From Candidatus Thioglobus autotrophicus (lineage in GTDB: Bacteria; Pseudomonadota; Gammaproteobacteria; PS1; Pseudothioglobaceae), in contig JAKUUR010000010.1 of assembly GCA_022448455.1 (NCBI GenBank), forward strand, positions 1 through 57,864: a DNA stretch of 57,864 nt. The letters run 5' to 3'. Made by a program: the position numbers and the translations under genes. A model generated the notes under the pieces. That model made no database searches and was not told where the DNA came from. It saw nothing but the letters and a program-made list of their open reading frames with translations. Positions 1 through 15,437 of the stretch are shown here, in pieces. Position 1 is the stretch's first letter, and every line of letters starts with the position of its first letter.

Positions 1-1145
1 AAACTTTGTAAATTCTCTAAAATTAGGCCATTCAGTGTTTTGGCTTTATCATATGGCAGTTTAATCTTTAATGCTTTGTTCAGTTCACGAATGTTGATTC
101 GAGGATCTACTAGGTAACTACCATCTTCTTGTTGATTGATTTCTCCTATAATTTCGCCTTCGTTAGAAGTAAATTGTCCTACAATTTCTTCCAAAATATC
201 CTCAAGGACAGCCATTCCTTTAACTTTCCCATACTCATCAACCACTAAACCTAGTCTTCTTTTTTGGTTTTTAAAATGTTCAAGTTGCATGGATAGAGGT
301 GTACCTTCAGGAATAAAGTAAGGCTCACGAATTAGTTTTTTAATTGCTGTAATATTTATTTCATCTTTGGCATAAAGATTAACGATATCTCTCATATGGA
401 TAGTACCAATAATATTATTTTCTGATCCTTCGAAGATGAGAAGTCGGGTGTGTTGTATGCGTTTTAGTTGATCAAATAATTCAACTTCATTATTAATATC
501 AACACTAACAAGTTCATTATGTGGAATCATAATATCCTCGACCTTAACTTTTTCTAAATCAATAATGTTGAGAAGCATCTTTTGATAGTTTTTTGAAACT
601 ATAGATTTAGAATCTATCACAGCCATCCTTAGCTCTTCTGAGTTTAAATTATCTTTACTCGAATGTTTTAAACCAAAAGGTTTTAGGATGGTCTGAGAAA
701 TATAGGAAATTAACCAAATAACGGGTCTGAATAGTTTAATTAGTAATTCTATGGTTGCCGAAGCAGGCAAGGCAATTTTCTCTGGGTTTTTTGCTGCAAA
801 TGTTTTTGGTGTTGTTTCTGCAAAAATTAAAATAACTAGTGTTAAAGCTAACGATGCAATAATCACCGATCCTTCTCCCCAAAGCTTCAGTGCAAGAATA
901 GTTGTGATACTTGCTGCCAGTATATTGACAAAATTATTTCCCAGAAGAATAACGCCAATTAAATAATCAACATTTTTTAAGAGTTTTTCTACTCTTTTTG
1001 CTTGTGGGTTGTTTTTAGCACTAAGGGTTTTCAGTCGATAACGGTTCATAGCCATCATCGAGGTTTCAGTACCAGAGAAAAAAGCTGAAGCTAGAATTAG
1101 AGCGAAAAGTAAAACACTTAGCCAAAAAGTGGACAGTGATTCCAA
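1..1145 (-). CDS. CorB/HlyC-type CNNM membrane protein with CBS domains (C-terminus cut by window edge)
   Basis: I translated this from the minus strand; the reading frame stays open to the left edge, so the C-terminus is missing. The N-terminus has hydrophobic segments with the family hallmark FFSGTETSMM near residues 22-31, typical of the DUF21/CNNM domain of CorB (YfjD) proteins. About two CBS motifs follow (around IMIPHNELVSV and FIPEGTPLSMQ), then the start of a CorC_HlyC domain (VDPRINIRELN). The family is linked to magnesium/cobalt efflux or tolerance and sits in the inner membrane. The start is TTG: a TGA lies in frame immediately before it, and the next ATG would remove part of the first membrane helix. 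It lies 76 bp downstream of eno on the same strand and may be co-transcribed. Family is clear; exact transported ion is not known. Confidence 0.88.
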   Translation of the reverse strand, partial: MESLSTFWLSVLLFALILASAFFSGTETSMMAMNRYRLKTLSAKNNPQAKRVEKLLKNVDYLIGVILLGNNFVNILAASITTILALKLWGEGSVIIASLALTLVILIFAETTPKTFAAKNPEKIALPASATIELLIKLFRPVIWLISYISQTILKPFGLKHSSKDNLNSEELRMAVIDSKSIVSKNYQKMLLNIIDLEKVKVEDIMIPHNELVSVDINNEVELFDQLKRIQHTRLLIFEGSENNIIGTIHMRDIVNLYAKDEINITAIKKLIREPYFIPEGTPLSMQLEHFKNQKRRLGLVVDEYGKVKGMAVLEDILEEIVGQFTSNEGEIIGEINQQEDGSYLVDPRINIRELNKALKIKLPYDKAKTLNGLILENLQS

Positions 1146-1221
1146 TCAATTACCCATATTTATTCAATGAAAACTTATTTTAACCTTAAAGAAGATGAAA
1201 AATATTTGAACAAGTCTATTG

Positions 1222-2499
1222 TTAAAGATGCTTGAATGCACTGAGTCCAGGATAGTATGCATCATCTCCCAGTTCCTCTTCAATGCGTAGCAATCGATTA
1301 TATTTTGCAAGCCTGTCAGAACGAGACAATGAACCTGTTTTAATTTGTCCACAGCTGGTTGCAACAGATAGGTCTGCAATAGTAGTGTCTTCAGTTTCAC
1401 CACTTCTGTGAGACATAACGCAAGTGTATCCAGCACTTAAAGCCATCTTCATTGCGTCAAACGTTTCTGTAAGTGTACCTATTTGGTTGACTTTTATAAG
1501 GATCGAGTTGGCAATATTGTTCTCTATACCTCTAGCTAAAATTTTACTATTAGTAACAAATAAATCATCACCTACCAATTGAGTTTTGTCAGATAATCTT
1601 TTGGTAAGCATCTCCCAGCCTGACCAGTCATTTTCATCCATCCCGTCTTCGATAGAAATGATTGGATATTTTTCAACCCATGATGCAAGATAACTCGTAA
1701 ATTCCTCATTACTCAGTTTCAAACCTTCTGAGGATAAGTTATAGGTACCGTTAAAGTAAAACTCAGAACTAGCAGCGTCAATTCCAATAAAGATATCTTT
1801 TCCTGCTTCATATCCCGCACTCTTAATAGCTTTAAGGATGACCTTTAAAGCCTCCTCGTTAGAACTTAAGTTGGGTGCAAAGCCACCTTCATCTCCGACC
1901 GCTGTATTAAGACCTTCTTGGTCAAGCAACTTTTTTAAATGATGAAAAACTTCAACGCCATATCGTAACGCTTCTTTGAAGCTAGGTGCTCCAGCCGGGA
2001 TAATCATAAACTCTTGGATATCAATGCTATTATTGGCATGCTCGCCGCCATTGATAATGTTCATCATAGGAACTGGAAGTTGATAAGTTTCAGAAAAATC
2101 AAATGAACGAAACAGTGATTGCTTGTTGTTATTTGCATTAGCGTGTGCACAGGCTAAGGAAACTGCCAATATAGAATTAGCACCCAAGCGAGATTTTGTT
2201 TCAGTGCCATCGATGTCAATCATTTTTTGATCGATGGCTAGTTGATTTGAGATTTTCATACCAACGAGGGCGTCGTTAATCTCATGGTTAATATTATTAA
2301 CAGATTGAGTAACACCTTTTCCCAAATAACGGTTTTTATCGCCATCTCTTAGCTCCAAGGCTTCACGTTGCCCAGTGGAAGCTCCGGATGGAACCATTGC
2401 CCTTCCTAAAACACCGTTATTAAGAATTACATCTGCCTCAACAGTAGGGTTACCTCTAGAATCTAAAACCTCACGGGCTTTGATTTGTTTAATTGTCAT
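1222..2499 (-). CDS. eno: Enolase
   Basis: This cytoplasmic glycolytic enzyme interconverts 2-phosphoglycerate and phosphoenolpyruvate. At 425 residues it has the usual length and is full. The N-terminal domain begins [22 protein letters not shown], the classic enolase opening (conserved RGNPTVE). The barrel shows the magnesium ligands in the contexts [20 protein letters not shown] and VGDDLFVTN, and the signature [13 protein letters not shown]. The catalytic lysine region is present, followed by the conserved [15 protein letters not shown] block. It lies 14 bp downstream of dnaJ on the same strand, so it is probably read in one transcript with dnaJ; that neighbour is unusual compared with the common pyrG-eno pairing (pyrG is 41 kb away here). 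In an autotroph it would link the Calvin cycle product 3-phosphoglycerate to pyruvate. Confidence 0.97.
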
Positions 2500-2513
2500 T
2501 AAGGAATGGAAGT

Positions 2514-3614
2514 TTATTCAAAGAAAGACTTCATTTTACCAAAAAAGGAATTTGATTCTGGGTGTTGTTTGGCGTTGCAAGAACTAGAAAAGTCCTTTAA
2601 AAGCTGCTTTTGTTTAGAATTTAGGTTAACAGGTGTCTCTAATTTGACCTGGCAGAGAAGATCGCCGGAACCATTGTATCTCATTGCTGGCATGCCTTTG
2701 CCGCGAAGTCTGAAGAGTTTTGCGGTTTGAGTACCTGACGGAATATTAATTTTAAGCTTACCATCCAAGGTTGGAACTTCAATTGAGCCACCAAGAGTAG
2801 CTGTTGCAAAATCGATAGGGATTTCACAATACAAGTCGTTCCCCTCACGTTGAAAGATTTGGTGATCTTTGATATGCATTTGCACATAAAGATCACCAGA
2901 AGGTCCACCACGTAAACCAGCTTCACCTTCACTACTGAGACGAATTCTGTTTCCAGTATCAACTCCAGCTGGTATCTTGACGGAAAGAGTTTTTTGTTTT
3001 CTTACAATCCCTTGGCCACCACAAGTGCGACAAGGAGAATCAATTTTTTCACCGGTACCATGACATTGGTTACAAGGTCTCTGAATAGCAAAGAAACCTT
3101 GCTGTATTTGAACTTGACCACTACCATTACAATTTCCACAAGTTTTAACTGTTGTTCCTGGTTTTGCACCACTACCAGAACAAGTGTCACAAGTATCGTT
3201 TTTAGGTACTCTGATTTTAACTGTATCACCTTTAGCGGCTTGTCTTAAATCAATTTCTAGGTCATATCGAAGGTCAGGGCCTCGATTATCAGGCTTGGTA
3301 TTACCACCACCAAATATATCACCAAAAATATCTCCAAAGCCACCAGCACCAAAAGGATTTCCACCTCCAGAACCACCAGCACCTTGTTCTACGCCGGCGT
3401 GCCCAAATTGATCATAAGATGCACGTTTTTGAGGGTCAGAGATGATATCGTATGCTTTACGTACTTCTTTAAATTTTTTCTCAGCACCAACCTTATCATC
3501 AGCATTTCGATCAGGATGATATTTCATCGCAAGACGTTTATAAGCCTTTTTGATTTCGGCTTCTTCTGCGCCTTTTTTAACGCCTAAAACTTCGTAGTAA
3601 TCTCTTTGCGGCAT
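2514..3614 (-). CDS. dnaJ: Chaperone DnaJ (Hsp40)
   Basis: This is a type I DnaJ of 366 residues. The J domain (residues 1-70) contains the HPD tripeptide ([11 protein letters not shown]) that stimulates the DnaK ATPase. A Gly/Phe-rich linker follows ([22 protein letters not shown]). The zinc-binding region has four CxxCxGxG-type repeats ([32 protein letters not shown]), then the C-terminal substrate-binding domain. It lies 72 bp downstream of dnaK, the standard pairing. The gap holds a hairpin (see terminator entry) that may lower its expression relative to dnaK. The likely SD is the AAGAGA just before the ATG; the AGGAGG in the hairpin's 3' arm is about 20 nt away and too distant. Confidence 0.97.
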
Positions 3615-6720: not shown

Positions 6721-7756
6721 CTAATTTTTCCTTGTTGAATAGTTTTGCTCTCCAGCCATTGCGTAAAGGTGCATTTAAGTCTCCTCTTATGAATTGAATT
6801 AATGACTTGCTAGTGCTTATAACTTCAGGCGGTAGATTATAAGCTTCAGCTATGCTATTAATAATTCTTTGAAGTTCATTTTTTTTGCTTTTTTCAGAAC
6901 TAGTTAAAGGCTTTTGAGGTGTTAACAATTCAGAGAGAGTGAGGTTCACAGATGATTCTTTAACAAAGTCATCAAAAAGTTTTTGTGAACGAGTTGAAAG
7001 CTTACTTTTTCCACAAGCGTAATCTAGTAATTTTTGATCAGACATTATCCATTTTCGAGGCTTATTTTTTTGTTGGGCATTGTTCTCTCGCCAAGCTACA
7101 AGTTTGATTGCCTGGTCTTGAAATTTTTTTCCAAGCTGTGAGAGTCCTTTAGTTTTATAACAAATCTGTTCAATACTAGGTTCATAAAGCTCTTGATCAA
7201 GAAGAAATCTTGTCTCTTCATCGAGCCATTGTATTTTTTTACTAATGGTTAGCTCATGTTTCAGTTTTTCGAAATTAGGCAGCAAATATCTGACATCATC
7301 CAGGGCATATTCTACAACATTCGCTGGGAGTGGCCTTGTTGTCCAGTCAAATCGAGTAAAACTTTTATCTAGCTGAACGTCTTGCAAAATTTCTGTTAAT
7401 GCTTGGTAGGAAATTTGAAGTGGATAGTTCAATAATGAGGCAGCAATCTGAGTATCAAATAATGAAACTGGTATTCGTTTTGATAAATGGTAGAGGGCTT
7501 CAATGTCTTGTCTAGCTGAGTGAACAACCCATTCGGTTTCATTATGATAGAGTTTTTCAAATAATGGCTCTAAATCGTTAATTGACAGAACATCAATACA
7601 TTCTGCGGAGTGGGTGGTTGCAATTTGGACTAGACATAGCTCCGGATAATAAGTATTAATGCGTTTAAACTCAGTATCAATAGCAAGATGAAAAGCACTA
7701 TTAATAGTTTTGAGATGGCGCTCTAATTGTGGTTTTGTTTGTATCAAAGTCTGCAA
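6710..7756 (-). CDS. rnd: Ribonuclease D
   Basis: This 3'-5' exoribonuclease takes part in tRNA 3'-end maturation. It has 348 residues. The DEDD exonuclease domain shows the acidic motifs AIDTEFKR (Exo I), VVHSARQDIEALY (Exo II) and YALDDVRYLL (Exo III) in the first 160 residues. An HRDC domain follows around residues 205-285, with a second helical region to the C-terminus, as in E. coli RNase D. It is first in the rnd-rsmD-coaD run and is divergent from the NtrY-like kinase gene. An inverted repeat TTGTTG/CAACAA (7767-7786) lies directly upstream of its start codon. Confidence 0.93.
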   Translation of the reverse strand: MQTLIQTKPQLERHLKTINSAFHLAIDTEFKRINTYYPELCLVQIATTHSAECIDVLSINDLEPLFEKLYHNETEWVVHSARQDIEALYHLSKRIPVSLFDTQIAASLLNYPLQISYQALTEILQDVQLDKSFTRFDWTTRPLPANVVEYALDDVRYLLPNFEKLKHELTISKKIQWLDEETRFLLDQELYEPSIEQICYKTKGLSQLGKKFQDQAIKLVAWRENNAQQKNKPRKWIMSDQKLLDYACGKSKLSTRSQKLFDDFVKESSVNLTLSELLTPQKPLTSSEKSKKNELQRIINSIAEAYNLPPEVISTSKSLIQFIRGDLNAPLRNGWRAKLFNKEKLDAK

Positions 7757-7766
7757 ATATGGTCAA

Positions 7767-7786
7767 TTGTTGTATTTTATCAACAA
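7767..7786. promoter_or_regulatory. Inverted repeat in the rnd / NtrY divergent gap
   Basis: TTGTTG and CAACAA flank an 8-nt AT-rich loop, forming a 6-bp dyad 10 bp upstream of the rnd start. It could be an operator or a 5'-UTR hairpin of rnd. It is a short dyad and may be chance. Confidence 0.25.
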
Positions 7787-7851
7787 CTCGCGCTAGCAAT
7801 AATTCATTTATGAGATAATCAAGCCTATTTAAAGTTGTATAAATGTAGTTT

Positions 7852-9924
7852 ATGTTGTTAGATCAAGCCTTTTCGTTGAAAGAATCACCTCGCGCTTTGT
7901 TTTGGATTGCGATTATTTTAATCTCTTTTTCGGGAATGTTTTATCTCGGTCTCAATCAAAGTTTGATTAATGAGTGGTATTTAGTATTGATTGGTTTTAA
8001 CGTCGTTATGAGTTTAATTGCAATTTACTACATCATTCTTTCAATGAAAAAATTAAAAGAAAATACCGATGAAGGTGTTATAGGTTCAAAATTTACCTGG
8101 TCTTTCATTAAGATTGTCCCTGTCTTGGTTTTAGTTCCAGTACTTTCATTCTATCTTTTTTCATTTGAATCAATCAGAGACAACCTAAAAAAAGCTGAAG
8201 GTCAGTTTGAAGAATTTAATCTTAAGGTAGGCGGTGAAGTCGACGAGCTCTACTACAATACAAATAATATAGCCATTAAATATTACGAAGATCGTACCCG
8301 AAATATAGGTAAATTAGTGAACTATTTTGATGCTCCTCGCGCCTCTAGTGAAAAAATGCAGATAGTACTGAACCTCCTAGTTCAGGATAATTGGGCATGC
8401 GAGTTAAAGCTCTATGACGCCTTAAAGAATCTTGTTGCGCAAAGTAAAAGTGATACAGTATGTTTAGCGGATTATGCATATACTGCTTCAGCCGATGAGT
8501 TTACTCTTACTGCTCACTACGCATCAGATATGAGTATTAGTAACTTGACTTCAAGGATGATGCGTTTTAGGGATGCAGCGAAAGAAGCTGAATTAACACT
8601 TAATTCATCGATTATCAAAACCCGTTTTATGATTGATTTTTCTTCAACGATTTTATTAGCAGTTTTGAGTGCATTATTGGTTGTCTTAAGAATGATTGAT
8701 CAATTAATGCGTCCTATGCACAATTTATCAATAGCAACGAGAGAAATTTCTTCAGGTAATTATGATGTGCAGATTCAGCAAGATCCAAAGAGCAAAGATA
8801 TGCATGACTTAGTTGAACATTTTAACGAGATGAGTAAGCGAATAAAGTTATCTAGAGAAGGTTTAGATACGCATAATTTGTATCTAGAAACTATTTTGAA
8901 GTACACTTATGGTGTTATTGCCCTGAATCAGGATAAGACAATACAGCTGATAAATCCTGTGATTGGTAAGATGTTGCAAATTGGTGATGAAAGTGCTTTT
9001 TTAGGACAGTCATATGACAGTATCATCGAGAATTATGAAAATCTGAAACCTCTTTTTTCATTTATTGAGGAAAAAATTGATCAAGAGTTGGAAGAGTGGG
9101 GTGGTGAAATTGAATTAATGTTAGAAGATAGGCACCGTCTAATTTACTGTCAAGGTGCAACCCTTGATGCTGAGAACAGAAATCTAGGTTACGTTATTAT
9201 CATTAATGACATATCGAAGCTACATCGTGCGCAGAAAAAAGCTGCCTGGGGAGAAGTTGCAGTTAGAATGGCGCATGAAATAAAAAATCCTCTGACACCT
9301 ATATTGCTTTCAGCACAGAGACTTCGTAATCTATTTTTAGATAAGTTGGATTCTAAGGATTCAGCAATCATTAATAAAACTACTAAAACCATTATTGATC
9401 AAGTCGCATCAATGGATTCGATGGTGAGTGCCTTTTCCGATTATGCCAATACACCAGAAATTAAAAAAGTCTCTGCATCACTTAACGCTTTGGTTAACAA
9501 GGCAGCCTCTTTATATGACACCCAATCTGGAGTACGAATTGATCTTGACTTGAGTGGTGATTTACCAAAATTACAACTGGATAAAGATGCCATTTCACGT
9601 GCATTGATAAATTTAATTAAAAATTCCATTGAATCTAAGAAAAAGAAAACCAGACTTAACATTGTGATTAAATCACGAATTGTGAAGGATGAAGGCATCA
9701 TACGTTTGACAATTATTGATAATGGGAAGGGCTTTCCTACGAATATTCTTGATCAGGTTTTCGAGCCTTACGTCACTACTAAACCAAAGGCTGGGGGGTT
9801 GGGATTAGCAATTGTACAAAATATTGTTGAGCAGCACGATGGGCAAATTTATGCCAGCAATGTCGAACCTCATGGAGCAAGAGTGACAATTGAATTCAGT
9901 ATAATTGCAAGTCAAAGGAGTTGA
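7852..9924 (+). CDS. ntrY: NtrY-like sensor histidine kinase
   Basis: This inner-membrane sensor kinase has 690 residues. Three hydrophobic segments lie in the first 110 residues (about 15-37, 45-65, 85-107). A sensory region of about 150 residues follows, then a fourth membrane helix near 263-285. Next come a HAMP domain (QLMRPMHNLSIATREISSG), a PAS domain around 340-450, and the HisKA H-box RMAHEIKNPLTPI, with the phospho-accepting histidine at residue 475. The ATPase domain shows the N-box LINLIKNSIES, the G1-box DNGKGF and GGLGLAIVQNIVEQHDG. The architecture is that of NtrY, which senses nitrogen or redox status in alphaproteobacteria. Its partner regulator starts 1 bp after its stop. The signal sensed here is unknown. 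Confidence 0.9.
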   Translation: MLLDQAFSLKESPRALFWIAIILISFSGMFYLGLNQSLINEWYLVLIGFNVVMSLIAIYYIILSMKKLKENTDEGVIGSKFTWSFIKIVPVLVLVPVLSFYLFSFESIRDNLKKAEGQFEEFNLKVGGEVDELYYNTNNIAIKYYEDRTRNIGKLVNYFDAPRASSEKMQIVLNLLVQDNWACELKLYDALKNLVAQSKSDTVCLADYAYTASADEFTLTAHYASDMSISNLTSRMMRFRDAAKEAELTLNSSIIKTRFMIDFSSTILLAVLSALLVVLRMIDQLMRPMHNLSIATREISSGNYDVQIQQDPKSKDMHDLVEHFNEMSKRIKLSREGLDTHNLYLETILKYTYGVIALNQDKTIQLINPVIGKMLQIGDESAFLGQSYDSIIENYENLKPLFSFIEEKIDQELEEWGGEIELMLEDRHRLIYCQGATLDAENRNLGYVIIINDISKLHRAQKKAAWGEVAVRMAHEIKNPLTPILLSAQRLRNLFLDKLDSKDSAIINKTTKTIIDQVASMDSMVSAFSDYANTPEIKKVSASLNALVNKAASLYDTQSGVRIDLDLSGDLPKLQLDKDAISRALINLIKNSIESKKKKTRLNIVIKSRIVKDEGIIRLTIIDNGKGFPTNILDQVFEPYVTTKPKAGGLGLAIVQNIVEQHDGQIYASNVEPHGARVTIEFSIIASQRS

Positions 9925-9925
9925 A

Positions 9926-10501
9926 ATGGAAGAAAAAACTACTTTCGGAAAAATATTAATTATTGATGATGAGAAAGATAACACTGAAATCATCAAAGAT
10001 ATTCTGGAGGATGTTAACTATGAAACTGTCCTAGCTCGAAGTGCGAATGAGGCAAAAGCTATTGTTTCTGCTAATACTTTTGACTTGGTTTTATTGGATG
10101 TGTGGATGCCTGGTCAGGATGGAATTTCACTTTTAGCTGAATGGGCTTCTGAGGGATTCGACACACCGATTGTTATGATGTCAGGCCATGCTGAACCCAG
10201 TGATATTGTTAGAGCAATGAAACTTGGAGCAATAGATTTTTTAAAGAAGCCTTTGCATGACTTTTTGCCGATTTTACGAAATATAATGACTCGTCCAGAT
10301 CCACAAGAATCAAGTCAAGAAGTGAGTGGTATTGATTTTTCACTTAGACTCAAGGAAGCTCGAAATATTTTCGAGTGTCAATATTTACTTCATCACCTCG
10401 CATTAAACGATAATAACATTGCTATTGTTGCTGAAAAGGCAGGATTAGAGAGGACGACTTTGTATCGAAAACTTAAAGATTTAGGGATTGACAAGAAATG
10501 A
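9926..10501 (+). CDS. Short NtrX-like response regulator: receiver plus Fis-type HTH, no AAA+ domain
   Basis: This regulator has 191 residues from the ATG at 9926, which is preceded by AAGGAG at 9915-9920; an upstream start at 9905 would overlap the kinase and lacks that spacing. Residues 8-120 form a receiver domain with the acidic pair D14/D15, phospho-acceptor D58 (LLDVWMPGQDG), S86 and K108. After a short linker comes EARNIFECQYLLHHL and a Fis-type HTH (IAIVAEKAGLERTTLYRKLKDLGI), closely resembling the C-terminus of NtrX. The roughly 230-residue sigma54-activating AAA+ domain normally between them is absent, with no trace of GAFTGA or Walker motifs. Layout is like RegA/PrrA, but the sequence and kinase partner point to NtrX. 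It overlaps trkA as ATGA, suggesting coupled expression with potassium uptake. Confidence 0.88.
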   Translation: MEEKTTFGKILIIDDEKDNTEIIKDILEDVNYETVLARSANEAKAIVSANTFDLVLLDVWMPGQDGISLLAEWASEGFDTPIVMMSGHAEPSDIVRAMKLGAIDFLKKPLHDFLPILRNIMTRPDPQESSQEVSGIDFSLRLKEARNIFECQYLLHHLALNDNNIAIVAEKAGLERTTLYRKLKDLGIDKK

Positions 10502-11868
10502 AGATTTTAATCTTAGGTGCTGGCCAAGTTGGCTCAACGCTTGCAAAATATCTTTGTTTAGACGATGACAATGACATCACTATAGTTGATCAAGTAGAAG
10601 ACAAACTTACCCTCTTGCAGAGACATTTAGACATTAAAACAGTTGTCGGTCATGGAGCTTATCCAAGTGTTTTAGAAAAGGCAGGTATTAAAACCATGGA
10701 TATGGTGATAGCTGTGATGCGTTCCGATGAAAGGAATATGGTTGCCTGCAGAATGGCTCATACACTTTATCATGTTGAGAAGAAAATTGCACGAATCAGG
10801 ACGACTGAATACCTGCTTCGACCTGAGTTATTTTCAAATGAAACGGTACCTATCGATTTTATAATTACCCCAGAGATTTTAATCACCGACTATATCAAAG
10901 GGATCGTAGAAGAACCTGGCGCCTCTCAAGTCTTTGATTTTGAGAATGGCTTGGTTCAATTGGTTGAAACGCGAGCTTTTGTTGGCACCCCAATTGTGAA
11001 CCGACCTATTAAGGAGTTACATGATCACATTCCGGATGTGAAAATGCGCATTGTCGGTCTTTACCGAAACGATAGAGCAATACTTACTAAGAGTGACACT
11101 GTGGTTCGAGAGGGCGACCATGTCTACTTTATTGCTAAGAAGAATCACGTATCAAGAGCTCTAAAAGAGTTTAGGCGCGCCGAAAATACATATCAAAAAA
11201 TCTTCATTGCAGGTGGTGGAAACATTGGACTCAATGTCGCAAAACTACTTGAGGATACTCATAATATTCGTATTATTGAGTTGGATGAAGACAGGGCTAT
11301 GGCATTATCTGAAGAACTAAATCATACTTTGGTTTTACAAGGCAATGCTTCAGATGAGGACTTACTCCTAGAGGAAGGGATTGAAAATACTGATTTGTTT
11401 TTAGCGCTGACCGATTCTGATGAAGTAAATGTCATTGTCTCAATTTTAGCTAAACGCCTAGGAGCACATAAAACAATCGCTCTAGTTAAGCGTGATGTTT
11501 ATGCCTCATTGGCAGAGCAAAGTGATGATGTAGATATTATCGTATCTCCTGACCAAATAACGGTGGGTGGTATTTTGTCACATATTAGGAAAGGTGATAC
11601 TATGAAAGTGCACTCACTTCAACATGGTAAAGCTGAAGCCATAGAAATTGTCGTTCATGGAGATAAAAATACCTCAAAAGTGGTCGGATTAAAGATTAAA
11701 GATTTATCTTTACCAGAAGGAGTAGTGGTAGGAGCTATTGTTAGAGATAGTGAACTGTTGATGGGCTCTAAAAAGTTGGTGATTGAGCAAGGAGATCACA
11801 TTCTTATAATGTTGACAGATGTTGGAAAGATTCATCAGGTTGAATCCCTATTCTCCGAGAATGAGTAA
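10498..11868 (+). CDS. trkA: Trk potassium uptake regulatory protein TrkA
   Basis: This peripheral cytoplasmic NAD(H)-binding subunit gates the TrkH channel. It has 456 residues in two tandem RCK units, as in other TrkA proteins. The first Rossmann motif, ILGAGQVGSTLA, is at residues 4-15 and the second, IAGGGNIGLNVAKLL, near 235-250. Each is followed by an RCK_C segment. It overlaps the short NtrX gene by 4 bp and lies 39 bp before trkH, so NtrY-NtrX-TrkA-TrkH is probably one operon. Confidence 0.96.
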   Translation: MKILILGAGQVGSTLAKYLCLDDDNDITIVDQVEDKLTLLQRHLDIKTVVGHGAYPSVLEKAGIKTMDMVIAVMRSDERNMVACRMAHTLYHVEKKIARIRTTEYLLRPELFSNETVPIDFIITPEILITDYIKGIVEEPGASQVFDFENGLVQLVETRAFVGTPIVNRPIKELHDHIPDVKMRIVGLYRNDRAILTKSDTVVREGDHVYFIAKKNHVSRALKEFRRAENTYQKIFIAGGGNIGLNVAKLLEDTHNIRIIELDEDRAMALSEELNHTLVLQGNASDEDLLLEEGIENTDLFLALTDSDEVNVIVSILAKRLGAHKTIALVKRDVYASLAEQSDDVDIIVSPDQITVGGILSHIRKGDTMKVHSLQHGKAEAIEIVVHGDKNTSKVVGLKIKDLSLPEGVVVGAIVRDSELLMGSKKLVIEQGDHILIMLTDVGKIHQVESLFSENE

Positions 11869-11907
11869 CGGAAAAACAAAATCCATAACCAAAAAGGCAA
11901 TCCTAAA

Positions 11908-13359
11908 ATGCAATTAAGTGTTGTTTCTAAAACCATTGGTTTATTGCTTATGGTTTTCAGCCTAACTCAAATTCCACCGATACTGATTGACTTCATATAT
12001 GCTGAAGGTGAGTATCTTTCTTTTGTAATTTCTTTTGTACTGACGCTCATAGGTGGTTTTTCTTTGTGGTGGCCTTATCGAAATATCAAAAAAGATTTTC
12101 GTCTCAGAGACGGTGTACTGATTGTGGTCTGTTTTTGGTTGGTCTTATCTCTATTTGGTACTCTTCCTTTTCTTCTTACTGAGTCAATCAATGACTTAAC
12201 TTTCTCAGGTGCATTTTTTGAATCTATGTCAGGCTTGACTACCACAGGTGCTACGGTTTTAAGTCAGCTAGACGAGCTACCCAAAAGTATTCTCTTTTAT
12301 CGCCAACAGCTTCAGTGGTTAGGTGGAATGGGCATTATTGTTCTTGCAGTTGCTGTTCTTCCACTTCTTGGTGTTGGAGGTATGGAGCTCTATCATGCAG
12401 AATCGAGCGGTATCTCAAAGGACAGGCTGACACCCAAGTTAAGGCATACCGCGATTGCACTTTGGAAGATATATGTCTCTCTGACTGCTCTTTGCGCGAT
12501 TGGATATTTTTTATCAGGGATGACGCTCTTTGATGCGATAGGACATAGTTTTTCAACAGTTGCCATTGGTGGATTTTCAACACATGATGCTTCAATTGGC
12601 TATTTCAATTCTTTATCAATTGAAGTAATTGCAATGTTTTTTATGTTTTTAGCTGGTATTAATTTTTCCCTTCACTTTGTTGCTTGGAATAACCGTTCTT
12701 TAATGAACTATTTGAAAGACTCTGAATTTAAAACCTATACACTGATTTTGGTAATTACTGCGATAGTTGTTTTATTATTTCTCAGTATTAATGCAGAGTA
12801 TGACTCTTCTAGTGAAACCATTAGGCATAGCTTATTCCAAACAATATCAATTGCTACAACGACAGGATTTGTTTCACAAAAATTTAGTGGTTGGCCTGCC
12901 GCTATACCTGTATTTCTTATCATGGTCAGTTTTGTTGGTGCTTGCGTAGGTTCGACTGGTGGTGGCATTAAGGTAGTGAGGATACTGGTAATGTTTAGAT
13001 TGGGCATGAAGGAAATAAAAAAGTTTATTCGTCCTAGTGCACAGGTCAGTGTTAAGTTAAATCAAACAAGCCTTACCGATAAGACGATAATCTCTGTGCT
13101 GGGCTTCTTTTCACTCTATGCCATTTCTTTTGTAATTATTTTAATGTTGCTAATGTTTATAGGCTTGGATCAAGTAAGCGCTTATTCTGCCACCGCAGCT
13201 ACGATGAACAATCTTGGCCCAGGTTTAGGTCAGGTTGCTGAAAACTATGGTGCATTGAGTGACTCTGCTAAATGGGTTTTGAGTTTTTCAATGCTTATAG
13301 GACGATTAGAGGTATTAACCATTATTGCCCTTTTTCACAAAGCGTTTTGGCGTAATTAA
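11908..13359 (+). CDS. trkH: Trk potassium uptake channel subunit TrkH
   Basis: This inner-membrane potassium channel subunit has 483 residues and many hydrophobic helices. Four pore-loop repeats can be followed, including SGLTTTGATVL (first filter, about residue 110), VAIGGFSTHDASIG, ATTTGFVSQKFSGWP with the downstream GACVGSTGGGIKVVR, and ATMNNLGPGLGQV near the C-terminus. With TrkA it forms the low-affinity K+ uptake system. It ends in LTIIALFHKAFWRN, typical of TrkH. The downstream gene hppA is convergent, with a weak hairpin between them. Confidence 0.96.
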   Translation: MQLSVVSKTIGLLLMVFSLTQIPPILIDFIYAEGEYLSFVISFVLTLIGGFSLWWPYRNIKKDFRLRDGVLIVVCFWLVLSLFGTLPFLLTESINDLTFSGAFFESMSGLTTTGATVLSQLDELPKSILFYRQQLQWLGGMGIIVLAVAVLPLLGVGGMELYHAESSGISKDRLTPKLRHTAIALWKIYVSLTALCAIGYFLSGMTLFDAIGHSFSTVAIGGFSTHDASIGYFNSLSIEVIAMFFMFLAGINFSLHFVAWNNRSLMNYLKDSEFKTYTLILVITAIVVLLFLSINAEYDSSSETIRHSLFQTISIATTTGFVSQKFSGWPAAIPVFLIMVSFVGACVGSTGGGIKVVRILVMFRLGMKEIKKFIRPSAQVSVKLNQTSLTDKTIISVLGFFSLYAISFVIILMLLMFIGLDQVSAYSATAATMNNLGPGLGQVAENYGALSDSAKWVLSFSMLIGRLEVLTIIALFHKAFWRN

Positions 13360-13398
13360 TCAGTACTTTACTTTCAAGATAATGAAGATGAAGTAATA

Positions 13399-13421
13399 AA
13401 CCCTGCCTTAGAGACAGGGTT
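13399..13421. terminator. Hairpin between convergent trkH and hppA
   Basis: A 7-bp inverted repeat AACCCTG/CAGGGTT with a 9-nt loop lies between the two convergent stops. It is followed by T-rich but interrupted tracts on both strands, so it may act as a weak bidirectional terminator. Confidence 0.5.
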
Positions 13422-13436
13422 GATTTGATTTATTGT

Positions 13437-15437
13437 TTACAATAAAGGCGCAATAACCAAACTTACTATCGCCATAACATTGATGAGAATGTTCATTGAT
13501 GGACCAGAGGTGTCCTTGAAAGGATCACCAACAGTGTCACCAACAACAGTCGCAGCGTGAGTATCCGTACCTTTGCCACCAAAATTACCTTTCTCTACGT
13601 ACTTTTTGGCATTATCCCAAGCTCCACCAGCGTTGGCCATCATAAGTGCCATTAGTACACATCCAAGTAATGCACCACCAAGCATACCACCTAGCGCTTG
13701 TGGGCTAATTAAAAAACCCACCAAGATAGGTGCAGAGACCGCAATAACACCTGGGAGAATCATTTTTTTGAGTGCAGCAGTTGTAGCGATATCGATACAT
13801 TTTGCTGTATCAGGCTCGGCTTTTCCTTCAAGTAAGCCATCGATTTCACGAAACTGTCTTCTAATCTCATTAATCATTTCAAAGGCTGCATCTCCAACAG
13901 CTGTCATTGTAATAGCAGAGATTAGAAATGGTATTGTGCCACCAATGAAGAGACCAATCAAAACTTCTGCACTATTTAAGTTGAGCACAAAGTTTTCAAG
14001 ATTAACACTCACAGTTTCAACATAAGCTGTAATAATGGCAAGAGCAGCTAACGCAGCAGCACCAATCGCAAAACCTTTACCAATCGCAGCAGTTGTATTG
14101 CCTAATTCATCCAAAGAGTCCGTAATTTTACGAGTATCTTCACCCAAACCTGCCATCTCAGCAATTCCTCCAGCATTGTCTGCTATTGGTCCATATGCAT
14201 CAATTGCCATCGTCATACCTACAGTTGCAAGCATACCAATAGCGGCAATACCAACCCCATAAAGACCAACAAAAAGATCTGCAACGTAAATAATCAAACA
14301 AATCATTAAGATAGGGATAACAACTGACTGCATGCCAATCGCTAAACCTTTAATCATGACCGTTGCTGCGCCAGTTTCACCAGCTTTAGCAATTTCTCTA
14401 ATTGGTTTTCCAGCTGTGTAGTACTCTGTGACGAGTCCAATGATTATGCCTCCTATACTACCCATCAGAACAGCAGCCCAGACATCATTGTTGACATCAA
14501 GATTATCAATCAGAAAATATGATGCAATGATAAACAAGATAGCCGAACCAATCGTCCCCGTTCTAAGTGCTGATTCAGCTGATTTATTGGAGGACATCTT
14601 AACAACGACAATACCTATGATAGAGCATATTAGTCCAAGAGAAGCAAGTGCCAAAGGTAAAAACATGAGTTCGGATTGATTTCCTAGTTTGTCAAGTGCT
14701 ACCGCAGAAAGAGTTGAAGCGATAGCGATTGTTGCAATCATAGAGCCACAGTAGGATTCGAAAATATCAGAACCCATTCCGGCAATGTCACCAACGTTAT
14801 CTCCGACATTATCTGCAATGACACCAGGATTGCGAGGGTCATCTTCAGGAATGCCAGCCTCCAGTTTTCCAACTAAATCAGCGCCTATGTCGGCACTTTT
14901 AGTAAAAATACCACCACCAACACGAGAGAACAAAGCTACAACTGAAGCGCCCATACCAAAGCCATGTAATGCCTCCGAATGCGTTTCACCGAAAAAATAG
15001 TATAGAATACCCAAACCAAAAAGGCCAAGTGCAGCTACTGACAAGCCCATTACCGAACCACCAAAGAATGCAACCTTAAGTGCCGCAGCGCTGCCTTCAT
15101 CATGAGCAGCCTGAGTTGTTCTAACATTGGCAATTGTTGCTGTATTCATGCCAATATAGCCAGCTGTTGCAGAGGCCGTTGCTCCAACAATAAAGCATAG
15201 GGCGCTTTCCCAGCCAAGGAAAAAATAAAGTAGTATCAATAAAACTGAAGCAAACATGCTAAGCATTTTGTATTCACGCTTCATAAAAACAATAGCACCA
15301 CTATGGATTTGTTCTCCGATTTTTTGCACTTTTCCGCTACCACTGGGTTGCTTCTTAATCCATTGATGGATAACTATTACAATTAACAGCCCAAAAACTC
15401 CAAGTGCAGGGGCTATCAAATTAGCATCAAATTCCAT
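13437..15437 (-). CDS. hppA: Membrane-bound ion-pumping pyrophosphatase, K+-dependent type
   Basis: This integral membrane pyrophosphatase couples PPi hydrolysis to ion pumping. It has 666 residues and about 16 helices. The PPi/magnesium site is clear: [23 protein letters not shown] followed by [21 protein letters not shown] near residues 190-230, and the C-terminal [15 protein letters not shown]. In the subtype loop [11 protein letters not shown] (about 446-456) there is Ala where K+-independent enzymes have Lys (GNTTK) and Gly three residues later, which marks the K+-dependent class. That class includes Na+-pumping and H+-pumping members; the FESY glutamate position fits Na+-PPases but does not prove it. 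SD AGGAG precedes the ATG. It sits beside the Trk K+ uptake genes. Confidence 0.93.

Follow-up and report, generated by a model that had tools for sequence, protein, structure and literature searches.

The gene at positions 9926-10501 (plus strand) of the window, the whole 57,864-nucleotide stretch of Candidatus Thioglobus autotrophicus DNA analysed here, codes for what is, judged by its domain and profile matches, the NtrX of the SUP05/Thioglobus family cut down to a receiver and a Fis-type helix-turn-helix (HTH), in 191 amino acids without an AAA+ domain. The short ntrX is a real, conserved and family-wide feature, and by sequence comparison it represents a probable independent case of an AAA+-less NtrX. 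We propose that the protein probably acts as a sigma-70-type regulator of its own ntrYX-trkAH operon through a palindrome upstream of ntrY, to which its binding is predicted.

The receiver spans residues 10-111 (9953-10258, plus strand; PF00072, 93.3 bits). It is followed, at the position of the AAA+ domain of relatives, by a linker of residues about 112-141 (10259-10348, plus strand), and then by a C-terminal helix (residues 142-160) and the HTH (165-185) with its recognition helix, ERTTLYRKLKDLGI (10349-10498, plus strand). HTH_8 (PF02954) matches residues 149-185 over its cut-off, at 28.9 bits, and the profile search gave no AAA+ or Sigma54_activat match in the protein at E values up to 0.1. 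The top NCBIfam model is NtrX (NF051870), which matches in two stretches with 110.6 bits and does not reach its whole-protein cut-off of 600. The top PDB match is chain 5m7n, titled Brucella abortus NtrX: residues 9-111 of the short protein align to its residues 5-109 and residues 125-188 to 395-454, and the two aligned stretches are separated by 285 residues in 5m7n versus 13 in the short NtrX. A sequence-only reading of this DNA had described an intact receiver joined to an NtrX-type HTH with the AAA+ domain absent; the domain, NCBIfam and PDB matches agree with this description, and in the alignment to full-length NtrX that it recommended both halves of the protein best match NtrX. The receiver type, the C-terminal Fis HTH and the NtrY-type kinase neighbour are those of NtrX; the central AAA+ domain and the score of 600 are lacking, as is the AAA+ domain with a GAFTGA motif that characterizes sigma-54 enhancer-binding proteins. 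A predicted structure built from 26 sequences (mean pLDDT 82, pTM 0.59) has a full receiver fold, a low-confidence segment at residues 125-134 of the linker, a long helix at 142-160 and the HTH.

The layout of a receiver plus a Fis-type HTH is equally that of RegA/PrrA, and the top Foldseek match of the short NtrX, over 180 aligned columns, is the response regulator 3rqi, which we take to be RegA-like; the Foldseek matches are mostly receivers. That the protein is a RegA/PrrA-type regulator which happens to adjoin ntrY nevertheless deserves almost no credence. NtrX is its best model, PrrA lies outside the best 25 of 107 models, a PrrA-type protein of the class reaches 163.8 with the PrrA model (cut-off 250) and 58.7 with that of NtrX, and the HTH of the short NtrX aligns to the NtrX C-terminus in 5m7n. 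The comparison with RegA/PrrA, suggested earlier as a check, found no resemblance, as PrrA models do not fit the protein, and this identity was rejected on profile scores (NF033791 is not the best match). A PrrA outgroup, whose branch length of 10 spoilt a quick NtrX tree, was omitted from later trees.

The distribution of the short form was determined in 83 genomes of the order (SUP05, Thioglobus and Ruthturnera), which belong to one family with 11 genera. Short ntrX is present in 77 of them, the 76 proteins from the other genomes being 59-95% identical to that of the window; none was found in six genomes that are 53-86% complete (G009, G012, G022, G032, G047 and G068). Since the matched frames are 160-234 amino acids long, there is no room for an AAA+ domain in any of the 77; the shortest, in G003, matches residues 58-191 only. 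No full-length ntrX was found in the 83 genomes searched. The occurrence of the short form in 77 of the 83 genomes indicates that the loss of the AAA+ domain is old and family-wide. The proposal of an old, lineage-wide change was thus upheld by the comparison of gene lengths in relatives, with no close relative carrying a full AAA+ domain at this locus among the order genomes searched, and a local deletion or assembly error was rejected on the same count. Named order loci, 18 among the best 80 of 573 relatives, come from SUP05, Ca. Thioglobus, Ca. Ruthturnera, Ca. Thiodubiliella and Bathymodiolus symbionts, some being labelled just Gammaproteobacteria and one Piscirickettsiaceae.

In ten sequences from the order, D14, D15, D58, S86 and K108 of the receiver are invariant, and so are residues 175-190 of the HTH tail, which differ in 2 of the 18 order rows that are named or come from the window. 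As judged from nucleotide substitutions, short ntrX is under purifying selection, with a dN/dS of about 0.1 in close pairs (0.022/0.22 and 0.029/0.288). This ratio and the homologues in 76 other genomes of the order argue that the open reading frame is not a chance frame.

Upstream of ntrX lies a gene for a membrane sensor kinase of 690 amino acids (7852-9924, plus strand), in which HAMP, HisKA and HATPase_c exceed their cut-offs, HEIKN is found within HisKA, a weak PAS match is sub-threshold, and NtrY_N has no match in the profile search. From these domains and from its matches to kinases at plrP-ntrY-ntrX loci the kinase is classed as NtrY-like, in keeping with the earlier reading, and it adjoins ntrX at each of the 41 order loci read. 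The genes ntrY, short ntrX and trkA are in line at all 41 loci read. The locus of one Bathymodiolus symbiont (L218; G049, locus coordinates 1033-3188 along the minus strand) has an NtrY frame that stops at 611 amino acids, with a gap before ntrX; here the kinase gene may be broken, with short NtrX intact. In the window trkA (10498-11868, plus strand; TrkA match of 614 bits) is followed by trkH (11908-13359, plus strand; TrkH match), and a divergent ribonuclease D gene (rnd; 224 bits, below the model cut-off of 299) lies upstream of ntrY. The class set used to examine full-length relatives is one draw of 369 genomes, thin in betaproteobacteria; it supplied the 96 regions, from 95 genomes and selected for the most part on plrP or receiver matches, at which NtrX was read. 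A same-strand TrkA match is present in 66 of these 96 regions, many of which are cut short, and in 62 it lies within 300 bp of ntrX, so that trkA beside ntrX is a common gene order with full-length ntrX also. The 4-bp overlap of ntrX with trkA (10498/10501) that had been pointed out is confirmed, and the link to trkA is not special to the short form. Control of potassium uptake by the short NtrX would follow from gene order alone.

The sequence-only reading held that NtrX normally acts with sigma-54 and that the loss of the AAA+ domain could be linked to loss of this factor. The search for rpoN that it proposed found no match to the RpoN DNA-binding domain in the source genome (95% complete, 70 contigs) and no strong sigma-54 activator, the activator-domain matches being weak (29.7 and 19.3 bits); as far as this genome shows, the regulator must work without sigma-54 here. 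Within the order, RpoN exceeds the cut-off in 12 of 83 genomes, from 4 genera (14 genomes at E up to 0.001), and 71 are without it. All 12 carry the short NtrX, the RpoN match of one (G079) being fragmentary, and because both occur together in these genomes the loss of the AAA+ domain and the absence of RpoN are not tightly tied.

The 96 class regions comprise 91 full-length NtrX, four short forms (in G189, G305 and G179) and one cut by a contig end (L138). A GxF[TS]GA string is present in 0 of the 91 full-length proteins, and every one of the 89 whose receiver and HTH share a single frame has gaps at the A, F and T columns of GAFTGA. The controls were eight activators of the order (loci L037-L044, one each), chosen as motif-holding frames, which makes this control dependent on the motif. 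Of the 89 proteins, 70 retain the Walker A lysine, 34 the Walker B aspartate and 23 the arginine-finger arginine. The accessible part of PMC10274813 reports that Caulobacter NtrX is likewise without GAFTGA and that some activators without the motif act at sigma-70 promoters. The absence of GAFTGA in 89 of 89 class proteins suggests that NtrX was probably not a sigma-54 activator even before the AAA+ domain was lost, and, with the similar case of Caulobacter (PMC10274813, as far as its available text goes), it speaks against the view that NtrX normally acts with sigma-54.

Two RpoN-bearing genomes of the order that were read further contain other proteins that look like the clients of RpoN: in one (L044) a true activator adjoins a sensor kinase, and in another (L040; G051:C1:219333-222818) a GAFTGA activator lies between hypB and hypD, which suggests that sigma-54 serves hydrogenase genes there. 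In G079 two RpoN DNA-binding fragments lie in separate frames (G079:C209:918-1248), one with an internal stop, and this rpoN is perhaps decaying. A further genome, G014, which is 99% complete, has two strong sigma-54 activator domains (contigs C43 and C66) and no RpoN match; contamination is possible, as one of the domains is on a 3.9-kb contig. Loss of sigma-54 from the lineage as the cause of AAA+ loss would accord with the source genome and with the 71 order genomes lacking RpoN. We consider it highly improbable, given that GAFTGA was already missing in class NtrX, that 12 RpoN genomes in 4 genera still have the short form, and that the activators at L044 and L040, rather than NtrX, look like the RpoN clients. 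The loss of sigma-54 as a driver is weakened, and this story should be dropped.

NtrX proteins without an AAA+ domain are a kind already known from betaproteobacteria; in the portion of PMC13001219 available, they are described with a citation of Bonato et al. 2016, and Bordetella PlrR is given as a receiver plus a DNA-binding domain. Among the best 80 of 573 relatives of the short NtrX, 62 come from outside the order (35-43% identity; Gallionella, Nitrosomonadales, Polynucleobacter, Alcaligenes and others, with 6 labelled Proteobacteria only); the 18 that were read have frames of 213-255 amino acids with NtrY adjoining, and 12 were included in the tree. The short NtrX has the PlrR-type architecture, a receiver and an NtrX HTH with no AAA+ domain, without a plrP partner: plrP (DUF4390) was found in 0 of 83 order genomes, and in 0 of the 14 named controls of that search, against 244 of 369 class genomes. 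The order linker is about 12-45 residues shorter than in eight aligned beta forms, and the residues after WMP are GQDG in the order versus DTDG or ETDG in the beta forms.

Phylogenetic trees bear on the number of losses. The NtrX tree (receiver plus HTH, 175 columns) had 66 rows, and the NtrY trees (448 columns) had 65 rows, or 58 rows with 14 beta shorts; order rows were sampled (18 of 41 in the NtrX tree and the 65-row NtrY tree, 14 of 41 in the later NtrY trees, 30 in the quick NtrX tree), and the groups tested were named only after the first tree was seen. On NtrX the order is one clade (100/100), and two beta-like short forms pair with a full-length protein, L133 (100/95). The latter (G403:C1:1149600-1155200) is full-length but short at 422 amino acids, with a decayed Walker B motif (FLKDI), and in its sequence it looks like an intermediate before AAA+ loss. 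On NtrY, L133 lies within the beta clade (100/100), its exact place inside being weakly supported (88/30). The position of the full-length L133 in the beta clade implies at least two AAA+ losses on the NtrY tree, assuming joint inheritance of NtrY and NtrX.

A single loss common to SUP05 and betaproteobacterial PlrR, by descent or transfer, would account for their identical architecture; the NtrX receiver-plus-HTH tree is compatible with a single clade of the order and the two beta-like shorts (AU p 0.49, not rejected), and NtrY allows the order with the entire beta clade including L133 (p 0.24). It is improbable, however, since NtrY rejects the order with the beta shorts without L133 (p 0.002 with 65 rows; p 0.003 with 58 rows and 14 beta shorts). 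The shorter order linker, GQDG in place of DTDG or ETDG, threonine rather than histidine in the recognition helix, and the absent plrP partner (0/83 versus 244/369) also count against it. A separate short NtrX occurs at a second site in G179 (L049/L259; G179:C19:12064-12612), between rpoC-like and YeeE-like genes as assigned by eye; it is 42% identical and shares the WMPGQDG motif, and the best NtrY match in this genome is on another contig, C39. Its branch was too long to place in the quick NtrX tree.

Between the divergent rnd and ntrY genes lies a perfect 20-bp inverted repeat, TTGTTG-TATTTTAT-CAACAA (7767-7786, no strand assigned), which we regard as a candidate NtrYX operator, new here. 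It is followed, 23 bp further on, by a conserved and putatively functional extended -10-like element, ATGAGATAAT (TGAGATAAT; 7810-7819, plus strand). A promoter scan listed no -35 for ATGAGATAAT, and its matches over 7600-13500 were no more numerous than in shuffles. Upstream of ntrY the repeat TTGTTG-N8-CAACAA stands in perfect form at 30 of 40 order loci and with one mismatch at 2 more, 32 in all. It is missing at eight, namely all six g5 loci read plus L209 and L221, each of which keeps NtrX; in the background downstream of the same loci (243,791 bp) no copy has one mismatch or fewer, and 28 copies have two. The gap between the repeat and the -10 element is 23 bp in 26 of the 32 loci and 21, 21, 24, 13, 11 and 3 bp in the other six. 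Helical-turn spacing was not relied on, as just three shifted loci stand behind it. The g5 loci without the repeat (L203, L207, L208, L211, L212 and L217) have other AT-rich imperfect repeats, for example AAGTTATT...AATAACTT in L207, near a conserved TATGCGATAAT; L207 matches the Ca. Ruthturnera Tsphm01 locus L311.

Exact half-site matches occur in 26 of 29 genomes of the window's genus, and in 24 of the 29 a single exact site carries a [TC]ATTTTA-type core; 21 of these core sites are at ntrY (19 seen directly, those of G020 and G024 by matching distance from ntrX), and the other three lie on a contig that lacks ntrX, those of L299 and L302 overlapping a ribonuclease D-like frame. Exact sites with other cores number 14 in the 29 genomes versus 12 for a backwards control pattern, and the nine of them that were read are all inside open frames. 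Allowing up to two mismatches, the pattern matches 9 times in the window versus 6.2 expected, and only one match is exact. The repeat is not above background at full-length class loci (3 one-mismatch matches in 434,542 bp) or at named ntrYX loci outside the order (1 in 489,693 bp). In the recognition helix one position is threonine in 40 of 41 order HTHs (one HTH was missed by the search pattern) and in 0 of 93 other class proteins, which have histidine (77), asparagine (12), tyrosine (3) or serine (1), and histidine is present in the eight aligned beta forms. By these alignments the threonine is specific to the order and new here, and together the palindrome and the helix threonine, as correlations, suggest a shift in DNA specificity.

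The repeat could instead serve rnd or another regulator, with NtrX controlling other genes, because the start of the divergent rnd gene is close by and, in a promoter scan that was at chance level overall, the repeat encloses a weak -35-like hexamer directed towards rnd (7783, minus strand). The half-site order also departs from the NtrX motif CAAN2-5TTG, as given in the text available of PMC9223101, and g5 keeps NtrX without the repeat. Upstream of ntrY, CAAN2-7TTG has scattered, unconserved matches only. We consider this alternative rather unlikely in view of the identical spacing from an ntrY-directed -10 at 26 of the 32 loci, the single such site per genome in the genus, and the joint occurrence of an order-specific palindrome with an order-specific recognition helix; moreover, the parts seen of PMC7240162 and PMC9223101 report NtrX autoregulation at ntrY in R. 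sphaeroides and B. abortus.

For autoregulation by the short NtrX, we envisage that NtrY would phosphorylate D58, and that the phosphorylated receiver would dimerise and set two HTHs on TTGTTG-N8-CAACAA. The protein would then be bound just upstream of the extended -10 of a sigma-70-type promoter, and would regulate, probably activate rather than repress, its own promoter. Transcription of ntrY-ntrX-trkA-trkH as one operon would run into trkA and probably trkH. The AAA+ domain would be dispensable in this scheme, because the AAA+ domain of the family had already lost its sigma-54-contacting loop. Against the own-promoter model stand the 8 of 40 loci that keep NtrX without the repeat and, with respect to activation, the 3-bp gap, at which the site would be expected to block polymerase and not to help it.

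SUP05 bacteria are abundant in oxygen-poor seas, and we offer, tentatively, a wider account in which a stepwise, convergent reduction of NtrX and a new DNA specificity in SUP05 led to a sigma-70 switch for one operon. The sigma-54 loop would have been lost first, across the class, and the ATPase motifs would then have decayed; the whole AAA+ domain would have been dropped at least twice (in betaproteobacteria and in SUP05/Thioglobus) and perhaps a third time, in G179. The freed receiver-HTH protein of SUP05 may then have gained a new specificity, with the helix threonine and the TTGTTG-N8-CAACAA operator, and become a switch of sigma-70 type devoted to a single operon, potassium uptake included. 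On this account a relative of sigma-54 activators has become an ordinary regulator; likely intermediate forms survive in the class, and an end point was probably reached at least twice. The palindrome gives the NtrYX system of SUP05/Thioglobus bacteria a specific candidate operator; full-text searches of one paper collection found no paper naming Thioglobus with NtrX or SUP05 with NtrY. For genome annotators, the name NtrX should not be taken here to mean nitrogen or sigma-54 control.

Several known systems resemble the short NtrX in part. RegA/PrrA/ActR proteins are alike in having a receiver and a Fis-type HTH in about 190 amino acids, but they are a separate family by profile, and the partner kinase of the short NtrX is NtrY-like by domains and locus. 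Full-length NtrX, as in Brucella abortus (5m7n) and at the plrP-ntrY-ntrX loci of the class, shares the kinase neighbour, the receiver and the HTH, often with trkA next, but has the central AAA+ domain (GAFTGA-less in 89 class proteins) that the short NtrX lacks. The GAFTGA-less NtrC proteins of Rhodobacter and Caulobacter that act at sigma-70 promoters are likewise NtrC-family regulators working without sigma-54; as the available text of PMC10274813 describes them, they retain the AAA+ domain and depend on binding or hydrolysing ATP, whereas the short NtrX has no such domain. The published NtrX motif CAAN2-5TTG (PMC9223101, in the part consulted) has its half-sites in the reverse arrangement to those of TTGTTG-N8-CAACAA. 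The closest parallel in architecture is provided by Bordetella PlrR and other betaproteobacterial NtrX proteins, which also consist of a receiver and an NtrX-type HTH with an adjoining NtrY-family kinase, and whose loci are sometimes followed by trkA/trkH as at short ntrX. The beta forms have a longer linker, histidine in the recognition helix and, in the account seen of PMC13001219, rsmB-plrP upstream; the SUP05 forms have a short linker, threonine in the helix, no plrP match in 83 genomes and, apparently, a separate origin on the NtrY tree, and in the window it is a divergent rnd gene that lies upstream.
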